In this document: in pieces, positions 4,003 to 47,136 of the stretch | How the letters are laid out: every line of letters begins with the position of its first letter | How positions within the stretch are numbered: the first letter of the stretch is position 1 | Origin: a virus | Length of the DNA: 64,000 bases | Strand: one strand, 5' to 3' | IMG/VR virus record: IMGVR_UViG_3300030685_000003 | Coordinates: 1-64,000 of that record | Program-made: the position numbers and the translations under genes | Notes under the pieces: model-generated | Databases searched by the model: none | Told to the model about the DNA's origin: nothing | The model's input: only the letters and a program-made list of their open reading frames with translations

Positions 4003-4878
4003 TTAAAATGTTTTTCATGATTGATTGACGTCAAATACGAACAACCCGTTATCTCTCCACATTTGTACTACTTGCGGGCGATCATCGAAGACAAACACTA
4101 CGTTGTACTTATCTTTGATATGTTTATCGTAGATCTCTTGCTTGACGATGCTATCTTTTCTCGTATCATCAGTCGCTCTCATATAGAGTTGATCGAATAC
4201 TATATCATTATCTTCAAGCCATCTCATTGTTTCTTCTCTACAATAATCCATACGCCCAGTAGTTATGATGATCTCTATCTTACATCCGTTTCTGAACGCA
4301 GCACTATAGAATGCGGCTAGAACTCATGATGTCTCATCTATACAGATATCTACTCAGCATTTAGCGAAATCATAGATGTCTCTATCTCACTTCTCGGATA
4401 ATGTTCAGTCGATATCGCATATAATACAGAGTGGGAGATCTGGACTATGTGGTCTTCTAATAAACGGTTTGTATAGATATTTATTGTACATCTCCATAAT
4501 TACCTTCTTACCTACGGGATTCTCTCTCTTGGAGTCTCTTTCGATACATTCATCTACCGGAGTGTCGAAGAATTTTACTTCGAACTCAGCACTATGAGTC
4601 TTTGCTATATCTCTTAGTACTAATTCATGCTCAGGAGAAAAGTTTGTATCGTCAACTATTGCTGTATATCAATCATAAAGAGTCATATGTACCATATGAT
4701 TTCTAGCCTCTATAACAAATTTCTCATTTGCTTTCGATCGACGTCAAACATCAACCATAGCTCTTAAGTCATCCTTGTTTATACGTTTATACTTACCAGG
4801 ACTTTTCAATACCAATTCCTTGGCATAAGTGCTCTTACCACTCGCTGGCAATCCTTTGAGCATGAGTATTTTCTTCAT
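4003..4878 (-). CDS. pnkP: polynucleotide 5'-kinase / 3'-phosphatase (T4 Pnkp type)
   Basis: 291 residues, close to T4 Pnk (301). The N-terminal kinase domain has P-loop GLPASGKST (residues 9-17), a DD pair and the TNFSPEH region. The C-terminal HAD phosphatase domain has DIDGT (about residue 170), a TTGR motif and FVFDDRP near the end. It phosphorylates 5'-OH ends and removes 3' or 2',3'-cyclic phosphates so cut RNA can be sealed. The RNA ligase gene lies directly upstream with a 1 bp gap, so the two form a healing-and-sealing pair, as T4 Pnk and Rnl1 do for cleaved tRNA. The catalytic DxDGT glycine is TGA. Confidence 0.93.
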
Positions 4879-4879
4879 C

Positions 4880-6130
4880 TTATGATTGGGTTGATTCTAA
4901 ATCCTCAACTCCTAGGTCAAGGTCTGCCGATTCTTTACCTAAAAAGATAGGACTCTTAGCTTTAGTTACAAATGGTTGGATTCAATCTCTACGAACAACA
5001 ACTCATTCATCACATGGTGACTTATCACATAATGGTACAGCGTGTTTGTGTGTAGGAAAATAAGTTATATCAATCCAATCCTCAGCAACAAAGTCTTTAT
5101 GATATCATTCCCACATCAATGGAACAATATTAAATCAATTCATAGTACAGAATGCCTCCATATTATCATATGTAAGATCACAAGAGATCCCATCCTCATT
5201 GACAATAGCTATTCTATACACATACATAGCCATTTGGCCCTGTGGTAAGTTATAGGTATAGTCTTTTTGGATTTGTTTGTCTCCATCCCATCAGATTATT
5301 TCTCCATAGATGATCCAGTTCTTTGGGATTCTATCTTTATATTCAGCTAGTACCTTGTTCCATAGATCAGAGGCATAGTACCCAGAGTGTTCCTTGTCTA
5401 CCTTAGCATCTTTAACTACCCTTCTAGATCCAGCTATGTAGTCATATTCGTATTCATCTATAGCGATCCCGAATTTTTTGAGAATATTCTCTATGAAGTT
5501 TGTAGCTCTTCTAACTTTGATATGCCCAAATCTACCAGATGTCCCATGTAATTTTTGGGTAGCGGTGACCATATCACCATCTTTATAGAAATGTTTATTT
5601 CTCCAGTAGTTCTCAGTGTCGAGATGTTCTGGGAAAGTTTTGGCATCAACTCTAGTGAATACCTTGTTTTTACCACCAACTCTATTCTCTCTAGATCATT
5701 TTACCGCAATTTCATATTTCTTACAGATCTCAACCCCATCAATGGCGTTAAAAGTGTCTCATAATTGCAGTTCTCATTGGACTAGGGATGATAAAGAGCT
5801 CACTGGCATAAGTAATGCTGAGGAAATATGCCCTCTCAATTTTACGGTCTTGATTCTTCTTTTCTCTTCGATATATCCTGGCTTCGCTTCTATGTCAGAA
5901 TTGAGCTCTGGTTTTCTGTAGAGGTTGTTATTCTTACAGTAGTCCTCAGATAGTTGACATTCAGCAGTGAATAGGATATATAGTGCTTGTAGATCTATAT
6001 CTTTAGACACTATAGCTTGGTATCCGAAGAACGGAACGGCTCTAAGATTATCGCATCATACGAGATCAAGTAGTGCTCAGATTTTTACTACGGTTGCACA
6101 GTAATTATTATCGTGGATTTCTAATTTCAT
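4880..6130 (-). CDS. ATP-dependent RNA ligase (DRB0094/Rnl5-like)
   Basis: 416 residues. Nucleotidyltransferase motif I is KLHGT (about residue 206), motif IV is DEGVVVR (about 373) and motif V includes TKAKS. An N-terminal domain of about 180 residues with RGHISSALLMPVS precedes the ligase core, as in the Deinococcus-type RNA ligase with an N-terminal OB fold. It seals 3'-OH/5'-phosphate nicks or breaks in RNA. It is cotranscribed with Pnkp and sits next to the tRNA cluster, so tRNA repair or processing of the unusual tRNA-like RNAs here is a plausible job (inference). Confidence 0.88.
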
Positions 6131-6196
6131 GATTGCTTTCTATAAAAATAAAATTATTCATCATTATGATAAGCTATGTTATAAATTGGGGAGTAC

Positions 6197-6330
6197 AAAT
6201 ATATTATTGTTGCCATGTGCAGTGACTTAGATGGGTATACTTTTACCCGGAATGGATACCGGAACCTATGCCCTGCCCAAATCCATTGAGATAGGTATTC
6301 AGTAATACTCATAGCAACAATAATATATTT
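6197..6330 (-). ncRNA. unassigned structured RNA closed by a 17 bp stem
   Basis: Perfect 17 bp inverted repeat (6197-6213 and 6314-6330) enclosing about 100 nt with further small palindromes (GGTAT/ATACC, CCGG/CCGG, GTGCAGTG region). It lies 6 bp downstream of the tRNA-Ser end on the leftward transcript and 66 bp upstream of the RNA ligase. Could be a stable RNA, leader or attenuator. No family recognised and no ORF explains it. Confidence 0.45.
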
Positions 6331-6336
6331 ACAATC

Positions 6337-6418
6337 GGAAGATCAAGGATTTGAACCTTGGAGACCTTTCAGTCTTACCGATTAGCAATCGGCTGCATTA
6401 CCGCTCTGCCAATCTTCC
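6337..6418 (-). tRNA. tRNA-Ser(GCT)
   Basis: 82 nt with acceptor GGAAGAT/ATCTTCC, anticodon loop TTGCTAA (anticodon GCT) on a CCGA/TCGG-type stem, a long class II variable arm, and T-arm with loop TTCAAAT. All serine hallmarks are visible. Confidence 0.9.
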
Positions 6419-6547
6419 TTATAGGTAATCTTTAGTAAATTTTTTGAGCCATTGTCTGAATGCTTTCTTAAACGAGATGTGCTTGATCTCTTTCTTAGAT
6501 AACCATCAGACTCACATACTTTTGATCTTTCTCGTAATCTTCATCAT
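6419..6547 (-). CDS. small basic protein, 42 aa
   Basis: MMKITRKIKSMGVGWLSKK continues to a Lys/Arg-rich amphipathic C-terminus (FRQWLKKFTKDYL). It stops exactly at the tRNA-Ser 5' end. Two glycines are TGA. Could be a nucleic-acid-binding or membrane-active peptide; coding is supported by composition and fit between two tRNAs. Confidence 0.45.
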
Positions 6548-6610
6548 ACAATGGTTAAGAATAAACATTGAAAACAGTCCCTCTGTGGCAGATGAAACCA
6601 GACAAATGAC

Positions 6611-6691
6611 TGGGTTAGATAGGATTCGAACCTACAAGCCGGTAAAGGACTCCGTCTACAGCGGAGCGGACCACCATTGCCCAACTAACCC
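6611..6691 (-). tRNA. tRNA-Tyr(GTA)
   Basis: 81 nt. Acceptor GGGTTAG/CTAACCC, 5 bp anticodon stem CTCCG/CGGAG with loop CTGTAGA (anticodon GTA), long variable arm as usual in bacterial tRNA-Tyr, T-loop TTCGAAT. Confidence 0.92.
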
Positions 6692-6695
6692 ATGG

Positions 6696-6766
6696 AGCGA
6701 TATATGGGACTTCAACCCATGATGCCTGGTTGGAAGCCAGACGTGTTAGCGCTACACTAATACCGC
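6696..6766 (-). tRNA. tRNA-Gly(TCC)
   Basis: Acceptor GCGGTAT/ATATCGC with one G-U pair, anticodon loop CTTCCAA on a TCTGG/CCAGG stem, T-loop TTGAAGT, discriminator U as in bacterial tRNA-Gly. Serves ordinary GGA/GGG codons. Confidence 0.92.
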
Positions 6767-6775
6767 ATATTATCT

Positions 6776-6848
6776 TGGAGAATGAGGGAATCGAACCCTC
6801 TCCTTCTCGGTGCAAGCGAGATGTGCTAGCCATTGCCACTAACCCCCC
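6776..6848 (-). tRNA. tRNA-Ala(TGC)
   Basis: Anticodon loop CTTGCAC on a TCTCG/CGAGA stem. The acceptor GGGGGGT/ATTCTCC includes a G3-U70 wobble, the alanine identity element. T-arm GAGGG-TTCGATT-CCCTC and D-arm are canonical. Confidence 0.92.
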
Positions 6849-6852
6849 ATAT

Positions 6853-6926
6853 CGCATCCCCTAGGATTCGAACCTAGAACCCACGACTTAACAGGCCGTT
6901 GCTCTAACCATTAAAGCTAGGGATGC
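6853..6926 (-). tRNA. tRNA-Asn(GTT)
   Basis: Acceptor GCATCCC/GGGATGC, anticodon stem ACGGC/GTCGT with loop CTGTTAA, T-arm CTAGG-TTCGAAT-CCTAG, discriminator G. Fully canonical. Confidence 0.93.
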
Positions 6927-6928
6927 AT

Positions 6929-6993
6929 AGTCACAGGCGAGGATCGAACTCGCGTACGCGGATTTGAAGTCCACACCACTGACCAACTGTGAT
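6929..6993 (-). tRNA. UGA-decoding tRNA (anticodon UCA), probably tRNA-Gly
   Basis: Anticodon stem GTGGA/TCCGC (5 bp) with loop CTTCAAA gives anticodon TCA, which reads UGA. T-arm GCGAG-TTCGATC-CTCGC is perfect, and discriminator U fits bacterial glycine tRNA. Between acceptor and anticodon stem only about 12 nt remain, with no evident D-stem, and position 1-72 is an A-C mismatch, leaving 6 acceptor pairs. Given GroEL evidence that UGA is Gly, this most likely inserts glycine. A tRNA-Sec is excluded by the short arms. Confidence 0.8.
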
Positions 6994-7006
6994 ACTGCGA
7001 CATACT

Positions 7007-7077
7007 CATACTATCTAGGAATCGGACCTAGTCCTAGGACTTTGGAGATCCCTGTGCTACCAGTACACCAATAGTAT
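7007..7077 (-). tRNA. tRNA-Trp(CCA)
   Basis: Acceptor ATACTAT/ATAGTAT, anticodon stem GGGAT/GTCCT with loop CTCCAAA (anticodon CCA), T-loop TCCGATT, discriminator G. Its CCA anticodon shows Trp is read only from UGG, which supports UGA being Gly. Confidence 0.92.
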
Positions 7078-7082
7078 ATAAT

Positions 7083-7153
7083 CTCAGAGCCGAAGAATCG
7101 AACTTCTGTCCCCTGCTTCAAAGGCAGGTGTCATGCCACTAGACCATCTCTGA
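7083..7153 (-). tRNA. tRNA-Gln(TTG)
   Basis: Anticodon stem CCTGC/GCAGG with loop CTTTGAA (anticodon TTG), discriminator G, acceptor TCAGAG/CTCTGA plus a mismatch at 7-66, T-loop TTCGATT with an imperfect stem. First tRNA downstream of the DUF2828 gene. Confidence 0.85.
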
Positions 7154-7254
7154 ATATTGAGGTTTCGTGTACCTAACAGAAACCCCTAAAGAATAGCATA
7201 CAGCTTAGCCCACCGTATGAGAGACGTCGATAATCAACTAGACAGGGATAGCAT
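7154..7254 (-). other. intergenic spacer with hairpin
   Basis: Between the DUF2828 stop and tRNA-Gln is a strong hairpin, GGGGTTTC ... GAAACCTC, with a 12 nt loop (about 7158-7187). No T-run follows, so RNA processing or stability rather than simple termination is likely. Confidence 0.35.
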
Positions 7255-8646
7255 CTAATCTATTTGTTCGTATCTTTCAGAGTTGAGCGTCTTCAACATT
7301 ACTCCAATAGGAGTCATATCTTCACCACCCAATAATCCCTTCATGATAGCTGGAGATGCTCCAGAGACTAGTGCAACACCATTTGCATTATATGCTACAG
7401 GTGAGTTACCTTGCCTTCCATTTACATTCCAGTAAACAAGATTCGGCATTTGGTAACCAAATTGTTCGTATTGCAATCTGATAGCCTCATGATTTGTTAG
7501 TCATCCTACATTAGAGTCGTTGAACTCCATGTCAGAGATAACCAATATATTGTCTGGCATATCAGCAGCTGTTAGATTAGAAGCTAGCGCTGTATTCAAT
7601 ACTAATTGAAACGCTGCTTGTAGATTTGTGTCAAATCACACAGGCCCAGCAATCTCTCTAAATCTTTGGCAAGGAGATCCTTGCAAGTATTGCATTCTAG
7701 GTTCTGATGTGAACGTGATGAATGCATCCTTAAATATAGACTTGTTTCTTTCCGCTAGATATACTCACAATGATATGGAAATGTCCATCGGAGTCAAGTT
7801 ATTGTTACCATATGAGCTATTCATTGATCCAGATACATCTACCATAGGTAAGAAGGATTTTCCTTCAGGCACATAGTTAGGTAGGTTAGCCCACTGAGCA
7901 TTGATAATAGTTGGATTTTCTCATTTATTATATGATTGATACAACTGATAAGGAAACAATGTCCCAGCCTTGATTGCTAGCGGATCCTTTTCGATGAATT
8001 GATTGAATCTTTCCTCGTCGTGTCTAACAAATGCTTTCTTATATTTATGGAATGCTTGAGATGGAATCTTTTCGTATTCAATAAACGCCCATTGATTAGC
8101 AGACATTTGTTGCTCAACTACCTTAGTGTTTGCTACTAGGAATTTTCTGAATGCTTTTGGAGATAATTTGAGATGCTTTCTAAAGTACTCAAATATTTCG
8201 CCTTTTCTAGGCATCCATTTACATAACAATCCTATCTTACTTTCTTTTGTATGGTCAGTATCTGGTGAATGCATCCATTCAAGGATATATTCTAATGATG
8301 TATCAAAAAGATCATCCCATCTACCATATTCTGGCACAAATTTGTTGTATTTTTGAAGCTGTGCTTTTGATAAAGAATTCCAGATAGTTCTAAAGAATCT
8401 TCTTTCTCCAGCTCATCATCTGACATCTCTAGCCCAGAATAAACATCTGAACGCTAGCTTCTCATCTTCAACAAGTGCAGAGGTCCACATAGAAAGGATA
8501 TCCTTTTCAGACATATTTCTAGAAGCTCCCGCTATGAAGAAAAGATCTACAACAGAGTGTAGAGAAGTTGAATTTGTTACTGCTCCATTGGCAGTTAATG
8601 AATCATGCTGTCTAGCAGCGTTAACGAATGGTGATTGTGAGATCAT
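7255..8646 (-). CDS. DUF2828 protein: Ro60/TROVE-like region plus vWA domain
   Basis: 463 residues. The N-terminal helical part has VVDLFFIAGASR and RDVRGGAGERRFF, then CKWMPRKG and FVANTKVVEQQM-type motifs typical of DUF2828. The C-terminal vWA domain has a MIDAS-like VDVSGSM (about residue 289) with downstream Thr/Asp (GFDTN, ISDMEFN). DUF2828 is related to Ro60, a ring protein that binds misfolded RNAs and Y RNAs. Start MISQSPFVN is chosen because an upstream ATG lies inside RNA unit Y-a. Directly upstream are five Y-RNA-like units. Family call strong; RNA binding is inferred from homology and context. Confidence 0.85.
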
Positions 8647-8664
8647 GGTGTATATAGTTTTACA

Positions 8665-8737
8665 GAACACAGTTTGCTGGATTTGGACCAGCTCGCTCCG
8701 AGGAGCTTCAACCAGTTTAGTTATGCTGTATGTGTTC
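8665..8737 (-). ncRNA. Y-RNA-like unit a
   Basis: Closing stem GAACACA/TGTGTTC, then the shared motif ACAGCATAACT, a hairpin GCTC-CTCG-GAGC, and a T-arm-like hairpin GCTGG-TCCAAAT-CCAGC. Ends with TGT like the other units. It is the unit nearest the DUF2828 start codon. Confidence 0.65.
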
Positions 8738-10456: not shown

Positions 10457-11368
10457 CTATTTTTTTACCATCGAGTATGCTATACCCCAAGATAAACAAA
10501 AGCCTATAACTATAAGACTCATGTACGTCGGTATATGGAATCCAAAGATTCCTGATATCATTTTTGCTCATATGAAGAACAAAATAATAATAACTGCATG
10601 ACTAAGGTATTTAACTTGGTTACCTACTGCCTCCAATATAAAGTATAGAGATCTTAGACCAAGTATTGCAAATATATTGGAAGAGAATAGGATGAACTTA
10701 TCTGACGTGATTGCTAATACAGCTGGTATAGAATCAAAAGCGAACATAACGTCTGCTATCTCAATAACTACCAAAGTCAAAAACAACGCAGTCATAAATA
10801 GTTTTCAGTTTTCTCTTACAAAGAATTTGTGTCAATCTAATTTTGGGTAAACAGGTAGTATTTTTTTTAGAAATGTAGCTATCTTCCCTTTAGAATAATC
10901 AACTTCGTCTTGTTCTCAACCATCTGACATTAGCTCTTTGAGCATTTTAATAGCAGACCAAATAACAATAAGACCGAAGATAACTAACACAACTGGTCAA
11001 AGTGACATTAGCCACGCCCCAGCAAAGATAAAACACATTCTTAATACGATTGCACCTAGTATTCCTCGGTATAAAATTCTATGTCTATACCTTTGAGGTA
11101 TAACGAATGATGAGAATATTGCCATCATAACGAATAGATTATCAACCGACAGTGATTTCTCTAATAAGTAACCACTAAAGAAATTCATTGAAGCGTCCAG
11201 ACCCATTGAAAAATATATATACACATTGAATCCTACAGCCAAAGCTATCCACATACAGCTTTCTATAGCTGCTTGTTTCAAAGATATTGCTTTATCTTCC
11301 TTATGCCTTAGATGATCAAATGTCAACGACGCTGCAAGAACCACAAACATAACAATGTAATGTCACAT
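10457..11368 (-). CDS. terC: TerC family integral membrane protein
   Basis: 303 residues, 7-9 hydrophobic helices. Family hallmarks: SLSVDNLFVMMAIF with the conserved acidic residue in helix, and VVIEIADVMFAFDSIPAVLA with Asp/Glu in the second half. TerC proteins are linked to metal (Mn, tellurite) homeostasis at the membrane. ATG overlaps the TAA of the upstream gene; a TerD gene follows further upstream, so this is a Ter-type cassette. Uncommon cargo for a phage. Confidence 0.9.
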
Positions 11369-11658
11369 TATCTTTTTGCCGACAATAAAAAGCTAATGTA
11401 AGACACTAAGATAACGGCACATATGATGAATGATAACATCCCGCTAAACATAAAGAATACCAATAATGGAGCCAATACTAAGAATGATCTAATAGCAGTA
11501 TTATTGTTTTGATCCCATCTTACGATAAATCCATTGATTAAGTTAACCAAGAATCTAGTGAAAGGATTTCTCTTTGTGGCACCAAGCCATAGTTGGAATT
11601 TGTTTGCGTAAATTTGTCATAAATGTTTTTCAATAAATTTGAGTATAGTATTAAACAT
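11368..11658 (-). CDS. small two-helix membrane protein, 96 aa
   Basis: MFNTILKFIEKHLGQIYA is an amphipathic start, then two hydrophobic segments (about 57-75 and 77-92: LVLAPLLVFFMFSG, FIICAVILVSYISFLL). Translationally coupled to TerC by TAATG. Probable partner of TerC or a holin-like protein; not assigned. Confidence 0.6.
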
Positions 11659-11678
11659 TCCTAAATAGGGGGTAAGAA

Positions 11679-11708
11679 TAAAAGAAAAGGGTGGTGGTTA
11701 GCCACCCT
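11679..11708 (-). terminator. Rho-independent terminator after terD
   Basis: On the leftward strand GGTGG-CTAA-CCACC is followed by CCCTTTTCTTTTATT. Lies just downstream of the TerD stop. Confidence 0.75.
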
Positions 11709-11714
11709 AACCTA

Positions 11715-12242
11715 CTAAAGACTTTCAGCTACTTGTGAAATGTCTCCGTCAATGTAGTCTCCCATTGCTGTGAAAGCATAGTTGTCACCTGAGTCAACAA
11801 CCTTACCTACTACTACAGCAGTATGAGCACCACCTTGAGCCAATACATAAGTTGCAAGAACTTCGTTTGTTTCTTGATTGTATACAGTTGCCTTAGCATT
11901 TGCAACATCAGAGAACTTAACGTTTCCTGTGTAAATATTTACACAGATGAAGTACTCACCATCACCAGATTTAGTGGCGTCCATTTTAACGAATTCATCG
12001 TCTCCATCTCCTGCACCAGTTCTATTGTCTTCTGACAATTCGACCCCAGTAATAGCAGTTCTAGCATTGTAGTATGCTACTTTCTTTGCTCCATTTGCTT
12101 TTTCAACAATGAACAAATCAAGATCTGCAGTAATTCCTTCTTTAACGTCCCAAGAGAGACCTACTCTAATTTTTGAGATAGATGAACCATCTGCTTTTTT
12201 GAGGTCTAGAGTTTGACCTTTAACCAAGTTGAGTGCTTTCAT
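11715..12242 (-). CDS. terD: TerD domain protein
   Basis: 175 residues covering one full TerD (calcium-binding stress protein) domain: MKALNLVKGQTLDLKK, then VGLSWD, ADLDLFIVE, DNRTGAGDGDDE (acidic Ca-site loop) and GDGEYFICVNIYTG. TerD proteins act in tellurite/stress responses and bind calcium. The gene is TGA-free although the protein has about 19 glycines, unlike neighbours, suggesting high expression or recent acquisition. Own terminator downstream and promoter upstream at 12580-12607. Confidence 0.9.
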   Translation of the reverse strand: MKALNLVKGQTLDLKKADGSSISKIRVGLSWDVKEGITADLDLFIVEKANGAKKVAYYNARTAITGVELSEDNRTGAGDGDDEFVKMDATKSGDGEYFICVNIYTGNVKFSDVANAKATVYNQETNEVLATYVLAQGGAHTAVVVGKVVDSGDNYAFTAMGDYIDGDISQVAESL

Positions 12243-12273: not shown

Positions 12274-12343
12274 AGGTTGTGTATCGGATTCGAACCGACA
12301 TCTTCCGCTTACTACGCGGATGTTTTTCCATTAAACTAATACA
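12274..12343 (-). tRNA. tRNA-like gene, anticodon loop GTAGTAA
   Basis: T-arm GTCGG-TTCGAAT-CCGAT, D-arm GTTT/AAAC and anticodon stem TCCGC/GCGGA are good. The 7 nt loop GTAGTAA would give anticodon AGT (Thr). The acceptor GATGTAT/ACACAAC has two mismatches. Possibly decaying or unusual; it lies on the terD leader transcript. Confidence 0.55.
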
Positions 12344-12579
12344 TCCATATAGATATACCCCTCACGTGGACTACTCACTAGTTTTCATCCACGCTACTCA
12401 TATATTGTGACTTGATACATAATACCTATCGTCGCCCAAACTCCGCCACTTGTCCGCCTACATTGTTCGTACACTCCATCATATACCTCTACCCCTACCC
12501 TCCGGTGATCAAACCATACTCTCAGTTACCCATATATGACTTGCGGACACCCTGAAACCCGTTCTTTATAACGGGGATA
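12344..12579 (-). ncRNA. structured leader or ncRNA upstream of tRNA/terD
   Basis: No ORF. Contains CCCGTT-ATAAA-GAACGGG, a long-range stem TGTCCGC/GCGGACA enclosing about 95 nt, and CGTGGA/TCCACG. Preceded by a good leftward promoter. May be a stable RNA or a regulatory 5' leader; no known class recognised. Confidence 0.4.
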
Positions 12580-36479: not shown

Positions 36480-37181
36480 ATGATAGAATCAACACAAGAG
36501 GCGTTTATCAGAAACAAGAGAGACCCATCTGATATTAACGAACACATGGAAACTTTACTTTACTACTCTAGAAAATGTAATGTTGTTGCAGAATTCTGAG
36601 TAAGAACTGGAGTATCTACATCAGCCTTCCTATATGGATTGCAGCCAGGTCGTACATTTCTTGGATATGATATCCAACATTATCCTGAGGCTCAGCAACT
36701 ATTTGATGTAGCTAAACAGGAAGGTAAGAGTTGTGAGTATATTATCCAAGATGTTCTAGATCCTAATTTCGAACTCCCATATGTAGACTTCTTGTTTATA
36801 GATACATGGCATACATATACACAACTTAGAAAAGAGTTGGAGAAACACGCAGATAAGGTTGGGAAATATTTGGTCTTCCACGATACAGTAAGTTTTGGTG
36901 ATCATGATGAGGAACTTCCTGGTTATGTAGCCCATGAAGATTATAAATGATTACTCCCTGCATTAGATCAATTCCTTCTTATTTATCCACAATGGAAACT
37001 ATTGGAGAAACACGAGAATAATAATGGTCTGGTTATTTTAGAAAACACAGAAGCTCCATCTGAAACTAGTACATATGTTCCTAAAGATATATCAAACATT
37101 GAAAATCCAACTGAAACGGACGCCCTTAACTCAAAAATATACTCTGAAACTTTAGATGATGCTTTTTGAGACGATGCCTAA
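36480..37181 (+). CDS. class I SAM-dependent methyltransferase
   Basis: 233 residues. Motif I VVAEFGVRTGVSTS (Gly by TGA), motif II FLGYDI, motif post-II QDVLDPNF and FLFIDTWHTY resemble methyltransferase family 24 or cephalosporin-hydroxylase-like proteins. C-terminal 40 residues are acidic. Likely decorates a sugar or nucleotide with neighbours. Confidence 0.75.
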
Positions 37182-37890
37182 AAATACAATACAACTTATC
37201 ACATCTATATACTGAAATTACGATGTGTTGAAAAATCAGCCAGAGCAAACAATCTCTGTGAATTTCACTTGCTTCACAGAAAGTGATGAGTTGCTTGTAG
37301 AAGATGGAAATACATGGACTGTATATTCTGTCCAGGATGACGAACTTAATACACTACATCCTCGTTTGTGAGCAAAATACTATAGAACCCACCCATTTCA
37401 ATCATTGAAAGATTTAGATATTCCACTTAATTATGGTGATATAGTTATTCGAATGGATTGATCTGCTAGATTGCTGAGAGAAGACTCTATCGAAAGACTT
37501 ATAGAACAATGTCCAGAAGCCTTCGATATTGTATGTTTCGAGCATCCTGAAAGATCTGATATTTATGAAGAAGCAGAATACTGTATAGAGAATAATATTC
37601 CAAAATATAAGGGACTACCCCTTAGAGAACAAGTTAATTGTTATAAGCATCAGTGACATCCAGAGTGATTCGGATTGTCTGCAACTGGGCTACTCATAAT
37701 GAAATATTCTAAAGAGGTCGAGTCAATGTTAGAGCAACGATGGGATGAATGTATCAACTGGAGCCGACAAGATCAGCTATCTTTCGATTACTTAGTTTGG
37801 TTATTAGATATTGAACGTGAATGGTTGGATGACAATCTTCGACATAATGAATACATAAATTTTTTAAATCCACATAAAAACGACTCATAA
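37174..37890 (+). CDS. DUF616-like glycosyltransferase domain protein
   Basis: 238 residues. LITSIYGNYDVL start, FTCFTESD, KYYRTHPFQSL and IVIRMDGSARL (WiDg-like metal site), RDEHPE-like FEHPERSD, matching the DUF616/TOD1 glycosyltransferase layout. Overlaps neighbours by 8 bp and 1 bp, so coupled translation. Confidence 0.7.
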
Positions 37891-38654: not shown

Positions 38655-40292
38655 ATGGGTAAAGAAATCACGTTTTGAGAAAATTGAAGGAAAAAAATCC
38701 TTAATGGAATAAAAAAAGTATATGATGTGGTAAGAATTACTATGTGACCTAAGGGGAAAAACGTATTATTGCAGAGAAATAACGTACCATTGATCACAAA
38801 TGATGGTATAAGTGTGGCAAAACTTATAGAATTGAATGATAATGCTGAGAAAATGGGTCTAAGATTCATCCAAGAAGCCGCTTGAAAGACCAATTTAGAT
38901 GCCTGAGATGGTACTACATTGACTACTGTACTGTCTTATGCCATGGCAAATGAAGGTATGAAGTATGTAAATAACGGAATCAATCCATTTACGCTATCGG
39001 AGCAGCTTTTAAACACCCAAAAATTTGTATTAGAGGGACTAAAATGAATGACTTTGCCAGTTACTTCGAAGAAGTTGATCCAAGAAGTTGCTACAATCTC
39101 TGCTCAGAGCGAGGAAATCGGTAAAGTTATCGCCGATACTATAGATAAAGTAGGTGAAAACGGGGTTATTACCGTAGAAGAAGGTAAAAATCTGGGTATA
39201 ACTACTGAAATTACTATAGGATATAAGTTCAATCAGGGGTATACATCACCATATTTCGTTACAGATCCTAATAAAATGGAGTGTATTATAGAGAATGCAT
39301 ACATCTTAATTACCGATAAGACCATATCTAACCCGAAAGATATAGAAAAAGCACTCAATGATATTACCATGACAGGTTCTAAAGATATAGTCATTATTGC
39401 TGAGGATGTTATAGGTGATGCATTGACTATGATTGTAAGGGCAAAGAACCATAGAGGCACACCAATAAATATCGTAGTTGTTAAGGCTCCAAGTTACGGA
39501 GACGTTAAGAAAGAAATGCTATGTGACATTGCTGCCATCACTGGTGGTAAAGTCTTCTCAGATGATTTTTGAATAAGTTTCGACCAATCATCTTTGGACT
39601 ATATGTGACGTTGTGATAAATTTATTTGTACCAAACAATCAAGTATCATAGTTTGAGGTAAATGATCAAAAAAAGATATAGATTCTAGAATAGCTTCTGT
39701 AAAAGCGTTGCTCAAAAACAAGGATGATGATTTTGATAGATTCGATCTTGATAGAAGAGTTGCTGCTCTTGCCGGATGAGTTGCTGTTATCAGAGTTGGA
39801 GCTGGTACTGAAATGGAAATGCAGAATAAAAGACTTAAGGTCGAGGATGCGTTGAATGCCACTAAGGCAGCTATCCAAGAAGGTATTGTTGCATGAGGAT
39901 GAACGACTCTTGTAAATCTAAGCGAGTATATACTTAGTCAGTGATTCACATACGTTTCTGAAGAAGAAAAAATTGCCGACAAAATTATCGCAGATGCATT
40001 ACTCTATCCGATCAAACAAATCTGTTTGAATGCTGGATATAGTGGTGATGTGGCAGTAGATAAAATAATAAAGCATAAATCCAATAGCTATGGATTCAAC
40101 GCAAAGACTGGTGAGTACTGAGATATGCTTAGGATGTGAATCATAGACCCGGCTAAAGTTTTGAGATGTGCTATCGAAAATGCTGTGTCTGCCGCTATGA
40201 TGCTCCTTACACTTGATGCTATCGTTGTTGATGAAAAAATTAAGGACCAATACTCAGTCCAAACAGGATTTGATTTATCTGACGCTATGTAA
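38655..40292 (+). CDS. groL: GroEL chaperonin
   Basis: 545 residues, full length. MGKEITFGENW start, [26 protein letters not shown] (ATP binding; several glycines TGA), [11 protein letters not shown] apical domain, [40 protein letters not shown] and C-terminal DAIVVDE. About 16 glycines are TGA, at positions that are glycine in all GroELs: the best proof of the code. Probably folds the capsid; phage GroEL genes are uncommon. Confidence 0.96.
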
Positions 40293-45765: not shown

Positions 45766-47136
45766 ATGGCAAATTTAAATCTTAGATCGGCCGCTACCGA
45801 GCTTAATAACAAAACTATCAATATCTTCAAATATGGATGGGGATATGCTGGTAAAACAATGGCAATGTTTATGTACAATCTTATTGACCTAAACGCTGAA
45901 ACCATTGATTGGAAAAACATTAAACCAAAGCCATTCAAAGTAGAAATGAAAGAAAATCTTTTAACAGATCAAAATCTTGGAAACAAGGCAACTTGGCAAG
46001 AAATCAATGTTAAAGATCAAGTATTGGTAATTAACTCAGTATGTACTACAGCTAAAACAATCGTTGTTGCTGCAACTGGTCCAGTTAACTACAAAAGAGG
46101 TCAATGGTTCTTCAATCCACAAAAACAAGAATCATACCAAATCAATACAGATGTTTCTGATACAACAATTGGAGCAACTACAGTTACTCTTACTTGTGTA
46201 GATATCGGATCAGCTGCTGCAAACGCTAACCTTAGAATTGCTGGTTACTCTAAACCTTACAAAAACAATGAGGGTAATGCATTCGTTGCAGATCAAGTAC
46301 AAGAAATGTACAACATCTTCACTGGATTCAATATGGCGATCAATCTTGATCAAAATGAAATGAATCAAAACTCAATCTTCAAAGAAGATACTAAGGCATA
46401 TATTTCACAAAAGACTGCTGAAGCATCAAGAACAATGCTTATCAACTCTTGGAGACAATACTATACTGGTGAAAGAGGTGCTAACTCTATAGGAGGTACA
46501 ACTACTCCAACTCTTGGAGGTTTGAACTACTTCTTGAAGAATGTATCAAACATTGCTGCTATAAATGTTGGAACTGGAGCAAGTGGTGCAGTAGGTGGTG
46601 AAATCGTAGTAAATGGTTCAACTTATGATGAAAAGAGACAATCTTTCCTTTCTGCTTTGAACTCTATCTTGATCTCTCCATTGCCAAATATCAAAGGAGC
46701 TAACAAACTTATCTTCCTTTGTACAACTTCTTTCATGAGAGAAATTGAAGAAATGTTCTTCCCTAAATTAACTAACTTCGACAAGATCAGAGTTATGGAT
46801 TTGGAAGTAGAAACTATCAAATTTGCTAATGCAACTGTTTCATTCATCGTTGATGAAAGTCTTGATGATTTGAACTTCACTAAGACATCTGCTGGAGTAT
46901 ACGGAATGCAAAAGATTGGTTACATAATCCCTATTGATTACTGTAAAACAGTCATGAAAGCAAACGATGTTTATACTAAGGATGGACAATCAGTTCAAGC
47001 TCTTGGTATGGGTAAATTCTTCATCTTGCCACAAACAGCTGAAGAAAGTCTTGACTTTAGATTGTACTCAAACGCATCTGCGATGTGGGGAGCAATCAGT
47101 TCAGGGGCATACAGAAAGATTACATTCGGATGGTAA
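45766..47136 (+). CDS. major capsid protein
   Basis: 456 residues with HK97-like features: long N-terminal arm, beta-rich E-loop-like region (KRGQWFFNPQKQESYQ), spine helix MFMREIEEMFFPKL-type and C-terminal SSGAYRKITFGW. Placed after scaffold. Remarkably TGA-free: all 33 glycines counted use GGN codons, unlike every neighbour. Has own promoter upstream of scaffold and a perfect terminator downstream, consistent with very high expression. Confidence 0.9.
   Translation: MANLNLRSAATELNNKTINIFKYGWGYAGKTMAMFMYNLIDLNAETIDWKNIKPKPFKVEMKENLLTDQNLGNKATWQEINVKDQVLVINSVCTTAKTIVVAATGPVNYKRGQWFFNPQKQESYQINTDVSDTTIGATTVTLTCVDIGSAAANANLRIAGYSKPYKNNEGNAFVADQVQEMYNIFTGFNMAINLDQNEMNQNSIFKEDTKAYISQKTAEASRTMLINSWRQYYTGERGANSIGGTTTPTLGGLNYFLKNVSNIAAINVGTGASGAVGGEIVVNGSTYDEKRQSFLSALNSILISPLPNIKGANKLIFLCTTSFMREIEEMFFPKLTNFDKIRVMDLEVETIKFANATVSFIVDESLDDLNFTKTSAGVYGMQKIGYIIPIDYCKTVMKANDVYTKDGQSVQALGMGKFFILPQTAEESLDFRLYSNASAMWGAISSGAYRKITFGW

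Follow-up and report, generated by a model that had tools for sequence, protein, structure and literature searches.

Evidence that a phage reads UGA as glycine and carries a structurally ordinary tRNA with a UCA anticodon

Can a phage tRNA that reads UGA do without a D-arm, and which amino acid would such a tRNA bring to the codon? The question was raised by a gene in virus record IMGVR_UViG_3300030685_000003, which has 70,155 bases and includes genes for a terminase, portal, GroEL, RecT, helicase and tail-type proteins; positions 1 to 64,000 of the record are what we call the window. A first-pass annotation had placed the tRNA at 6929–6993 and described it as D-armless, with about 12 nt between the acceptor and anticodon stems and an A1-C72 mismatch. 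We find a complete tRNA (Table 1) in a genome where UGA stands at glycine positions.

The full gene, GTCGCAGTATCACAGTTGGTCAGTGGTGTGGACTTCAAATCCGCGTACGCGAGTTCGATCCTCGCCTGTGACT, folds as a cloverleaf and has its D-arm. It matches Rfam model RF00005 over positions 1–71 of 71 with 53.4 bits, where the cut-off is 29 bits, and with E = 1.1e-8 in the window this is not a chance match. The minimum free energy (MFE) and centroid folds from RNAfold are both the cloverleaf, at -23.4 kcal/mol, with a 7-bp acceptor stem that includes G1-C72, a 4-bp D-stem, and anticodon and T stems of 5 bp each. The acceptor strands GUCGCAG and CUGUGAC form seven pairs, one of them G-U. ARAGORN, Rfam and RNAfold all find the 4-bp D-stem with its 9-nt loop. 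Positions U8, A14, G18, G19, U33, U54, U55, C56 and A58 are retained, and the variable loop has 4 nt. With four arms and a covariance score above the cut-off, this is a canonical tRNA of the bacterial kind, and structurally it is an ordinary phage tRNA.

Table 1. Positions of the UCA tRNA, its parts, and other features of the phage
Feature	Position	Strand	Description	Evidence
UCA tRNA	6929..7001	minus	73 nt, complete, no encoded CCA	ARAGORN; Rfam RF00005; RNAfold MFE cloverleaf
Acceptor stem 5' strand	6995..7001	minus	GUCGCAG, 7 pairs with 6930-6936; absent from the first-pass span	Pair probabilities 0.96-0.99
D-arm	6976..6992	minus	Stem UCAC/GUGG, 9-nt loop AGUUGGUCA with GG	D-stem pair probabilities 0.76-0.87
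Anticodon	6965..6967	minus	UCA	ARAGORN; sequence read
Discriminator base	6929	minus	U73	Sequence
tRNA array	6336..7154	minus	Eight genes: Ser, Tyr, Gly, Ala, Asn, UCA, Trp, Gln	ARAGORN
tRNA-Trp(CCA)	7006..7078	minus	G73, A1-U72; four bases from the UCA gene	ARAGORN
tRNA-Gly(UCC)	6693..6766	minus	G1:C72, C2:G71, G3:C70, U73, CCA encoded; same array	ARAGORN
RNA ligase	4880..6130	minus	Downstream of the array	Pfam PF09414; tblastn
Polynucleotide kinase-phosphatase (Pnkp)	4003..4878	minus		Pfam PF25109/PF13671; tblastn
GroEL	38655..40292	plus	Full-length, phage-encoded, 16 in-frame UGA, most at conserved Gly positions	Homologue alignment

The D-armless reading was a boundary error, because the first eight bases of the gene (6994–7001), which hold the acceptor 5' strand and U8, had been dropped; the true gene reaches 7001, 8 bases past 6993. 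ARAGORN recognised no tRNA in the 65-nt span 6929–6993 alone. The first sixteen bases of the tRNA consist of two near-identical 8-mers, GTCGCAGT (6994–7001) and ATCACAGT (6986–6993), and the second contains A9 and the D-stem strand. Set against the acceptor 3' strand, AUCACAG can form six of seven pairs and leaves A opposite C at the end, which is where the reported A1-C72 mismatch arises. The error probably stems from this near-duplicate. The same six pairs are what could be said for a tRNA that is truly D-armless or reduced. However, on the full-length gene the D-armless fold has -17.0 kcal/mol, a penalty of 6.4 kcal/mol against the cloverleaf, the ensemble probability of its pairing is about 0.0003, and all 71 covariance model positions are matched, so we regard that structure as extremely improbable. 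We give just as little credence to a selenocysteine tRNA, the label that ARAGORN assigns by default to the anticodon UCA. At 73 nt, with a 4-nt variable loop, a 7-bp acceptor stem and a 4-bp D-stem, the molecule lacks the long variable arm and the extended acceptor and D stems of tRNA-Sec, and the UGA codons of the phage fall at glycine positions.

With UGA as a stop, long open frames have a coverage of 0.15; when it is not a stop, the coverage is 0.77. We aligned five conserved proteins (GroEL, RNA ligase, Pnkp, TerC and a Ro60-like protein), with UGA written as X, to homologues from phages and plasmids that use the standard code, and took the mean BLOSUM62 score per column. Over the 43 UGA columns Gly scored +2.92, far above every other residue; Ser came to +0.17, Trp to -2.34 and Cys to -2.58, and on the last two scores we rejected Trp and Cys as readings of UGA. 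In the same test GGA, GGT and GGG scored +3.4 to +4.3 for Gly and TGG scored +5.3 for Trp, as expected, therefore the test works. UGA is the commonest glycine codon (435/1209, 36%). When it is read as glycine, the open reading frames stop at TAA in 35 cases and at TAG in 22, and we detected no gene for a release factor in the virus record. The alignments strongly support glycine as the reading of UGA in the phage proteins, and a UCA anticodon in such a genome is what a code-25 tRNA-Gly(UCA) has. Of the first-pass description, then, the UCA anticodon and U73 are confirmed, and the proposal of a UGA-reading tRNA for glycine keeps its codon and anticodon and loses its structural part.

Which amino acid the tRNA carries is less direct. 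U73, G1:C72 and C35 fit glycine identity, for which U73 and G1:C72 are listed (PMC8629427). In Absconditabacteria and Gracilibacteria the published rule for host tRNA-Gly(UCA) also has C2:G71 and G3:C70 (PMC8629427); by this rule the phage tRNA agrees at G1:C72 and U73 and differs at the next two pairs, which are U2:A71 and C3:G70. We also scored the tRNA body with an isotype profile, which was trained on a small set, mostly from viral contigs, and has a leave-one-out accuracy of 71%. Within the array it called Ser, Tyr, Gly, Ala and Trp correctly, placed Lys first and Asn second for tRNA-Asn, and did not parse Gln. We consider glycine charging likely; it has to be inferred because the tRNA body is without C2:G71 and G3:C70 and is more Cys-like than Gly-like.

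That likeness could mean that the tRNA derives from tRNA-Cys by a single change, G34 to U (GCA to UCA), accepts cysteine and inserts some of it at UGA codons. U73, C3:G70, C35-A36 and the 4-nt variable loop all fit tRNA-Cys, although such a loop is common in tRNA-Gly too. The profile gives the body +11.2 for Cys and -1.9 for Gly; the difference of 13.1 is greater than in any of the 35 Gly tRNAs (maximum 7.5) and within the Cys range, with the lean distributed over several weak positions. On the other side, the profile detects Cys tRNAs with a sensitivity of only 63%, the UGA columns score against cysteine, and cysteine at a third of all glycine codons should harm the phage. We therefore think a cysteine-charged tRNA unlikely. 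Slightly less doubtful, though still not a reading that we favor, is the broader one that the phage has adopted a tRNA descended from tRNA-Cys, which reads UGA as glycine (or inserts Cys) and whose identity rests mainly on U73, unlike that of the host tRNA-Gly(UCA).

Some CGA codons suggest what kind of host this is. All homologues have Trp where the phage has CGA in TerC (10457–11368) and, at two places, in a MUCI70-like glycosyltransferase (37156–37890). One CGA in Pnkp aligns with Trp, Tyr, Gly and Phe, and one further well-aligned CGA column has no Trp. These few columns suggest that CGA is Trp in the phage. Since CGA and CGG are Trp in Absconditabacteria (PMC8629427), the host is likely of Absconditabacteria type, as far as so few columns can tell. 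We found no report of a phage that shares its host's sense-codon change (CGA = Trp) in the literature searched; our columns suggest that phages may share such a change besides the stop-codon change.

Our preferred reading, of which we are fairly confident, is that the tRNA decodes UGA as an amino acid and is carried to sustain the supply of UGA-reading glycyl-tRNA. UGA is a glycine codon for the phage and for its presumed host of Absconditabacteria type, and the tRNA, which lies in the array beside tRNA-Gly(UCC) and tRNA-Trp(CCA), would most likely keep up the supply while UGA-rich messages are translated. Host enzymes would add the CCA and a host synthetase would charge it with glycine; expression, this charging and the supply role are all inferred. 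The earlier suggestion that the tRNA boosts glycine insertion at UGA during late gene expression finds no support in codon usage: UGA accounts for 37% of glycine codons among the minus-strand genes and for 35% within the structural block (Fisher P = 0.34), and nothing here points to a late-gene switch. UGA occurs at none of the 33 glycine codons of the putative major capsid gene (45766–47136), a gene named by position only (P = 4e-7, Bonferroni 2e-5), and at none of the 18 of the TerD gene (11715–12242; Bonferroni 0.02). Structure prediction from the single sequence of the putative capsid protein was uninformative (mean pLDDT 30.6). Possibly the strongly expressed genes avoid UGA, and in that case a supply of UGA-reading tRNA would be useful. 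The neighboring tRNA-Trp(CCA) and the UCA tRNA could together limit misreading, since U34 might read UGG too.

The gene might also be decaying or unexpressed, with no role at all, because the host should already own a UGA-reading tRNA-Gly. Its 2:71 and 3:70 pairs are non-consensus, and host supply can suffice, given that code-25 prophages with no tRNA genes have been reported (PMC13059738). But every stem is intact, the conserved positions listed above are kept, and the gene sits inside a compact array with spacers of 1–4 nt on either side. We find decay improbable, a little more so than charging with cysteine, and keep to the supply of glycyl-tRNA as the better explanation.

Code-25 phages have been described (PMC10746230), and RSA-ATP1, a 39-kb phage of Absconditicoccaceae, carries a tRNA-Gly(TCA), of which its authors know no earlier case in a patescibacterial phage (PMC13059738). 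Compared by description, the two phages are alike in UGA as glycine, in having their own UCA tRNA (tRNA-Gly^sup(TCA) in RSA-ATP1), and in a small tRNA set; ours is larger, at 70 kb with nine predicted tRNAs. The host tRNA-Gly(UCA) of PMC8629427 shares UCA, G1:C72 and U73 with the phage tRNA. The opal suppressor tRNAs of code-4 phages, where UGA is Trp, share the UCA anticodon. The UCA tRNAs that we retrieved from viral contigs mostly have G73 or A73 and many are Trp-like, whereas the present tRNA has U73 and its codon is Gly. Few phages are known from bacteria that read UGA as glycine; with one published precedent, this is a second case in which such a phage has a UGA-reading tRNA of its own. 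Its importance lies there and not in a structural oddity; the false structural claim is removed and its origin explained. A 142-kb viral contig (L171, 1990–2065) also has a UCA tRNA with U73 and a G1C2G3 acceptor, unlike the usual Trp-type opal tRNAs.

The lineage has no close relatives in the collections that we searched: none in IMG/VR by portal, capsid or terminase, and none in a phage collection by terminase or capsid. The tRNA's own pattern had no match in IMG/VR, and a pattern of the anticodon arm had one match only, an unrelated tRNA in a phage of 59% GC. For the host, a tRNA-Gly(UCA) pattern gave 12 matches in genome contigs, none resembling a code-25 genome. Over 379 Patescibacteria genomes no UGA-recoded genome was found by the tRNA pattern or, among the matches listed, by read-through in RpoB and EF-Tu. 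We thus had no host genome for comparison from either the genome contigs or the Patescibacteria genomes searched.

Several other features of the phage deserve mention. By tblastn the RNA ligase aligns over 99% of its length with the RNA ligase of a mycobacteriophage, at 43% identity. The array and the RNA repair genes adjoin a gene for a DUF2828/DUF7788 (Ro60-like) protein (7255–8670, minus), which has about 42% identity with proteins from many large phages. A predicted tRNA-Thr(AGU) at 12274–12346 (minus), away from the array, has two acceptor mismatches and may be a degraded gene. The phage has TerC and TerD genes at 10457–12242 (minus). The stretch 6190–6335 (minus), which separates the RNA ligase gene from tRNA-Ser, has no Rfam match and folds with a closing helix of more than 20 pairs; its stability has z = -4.15, with 0 of 200 shuffles as stable. 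Lying near the Ro60-like gene, it is possibly a Y-RNA-like RNA.
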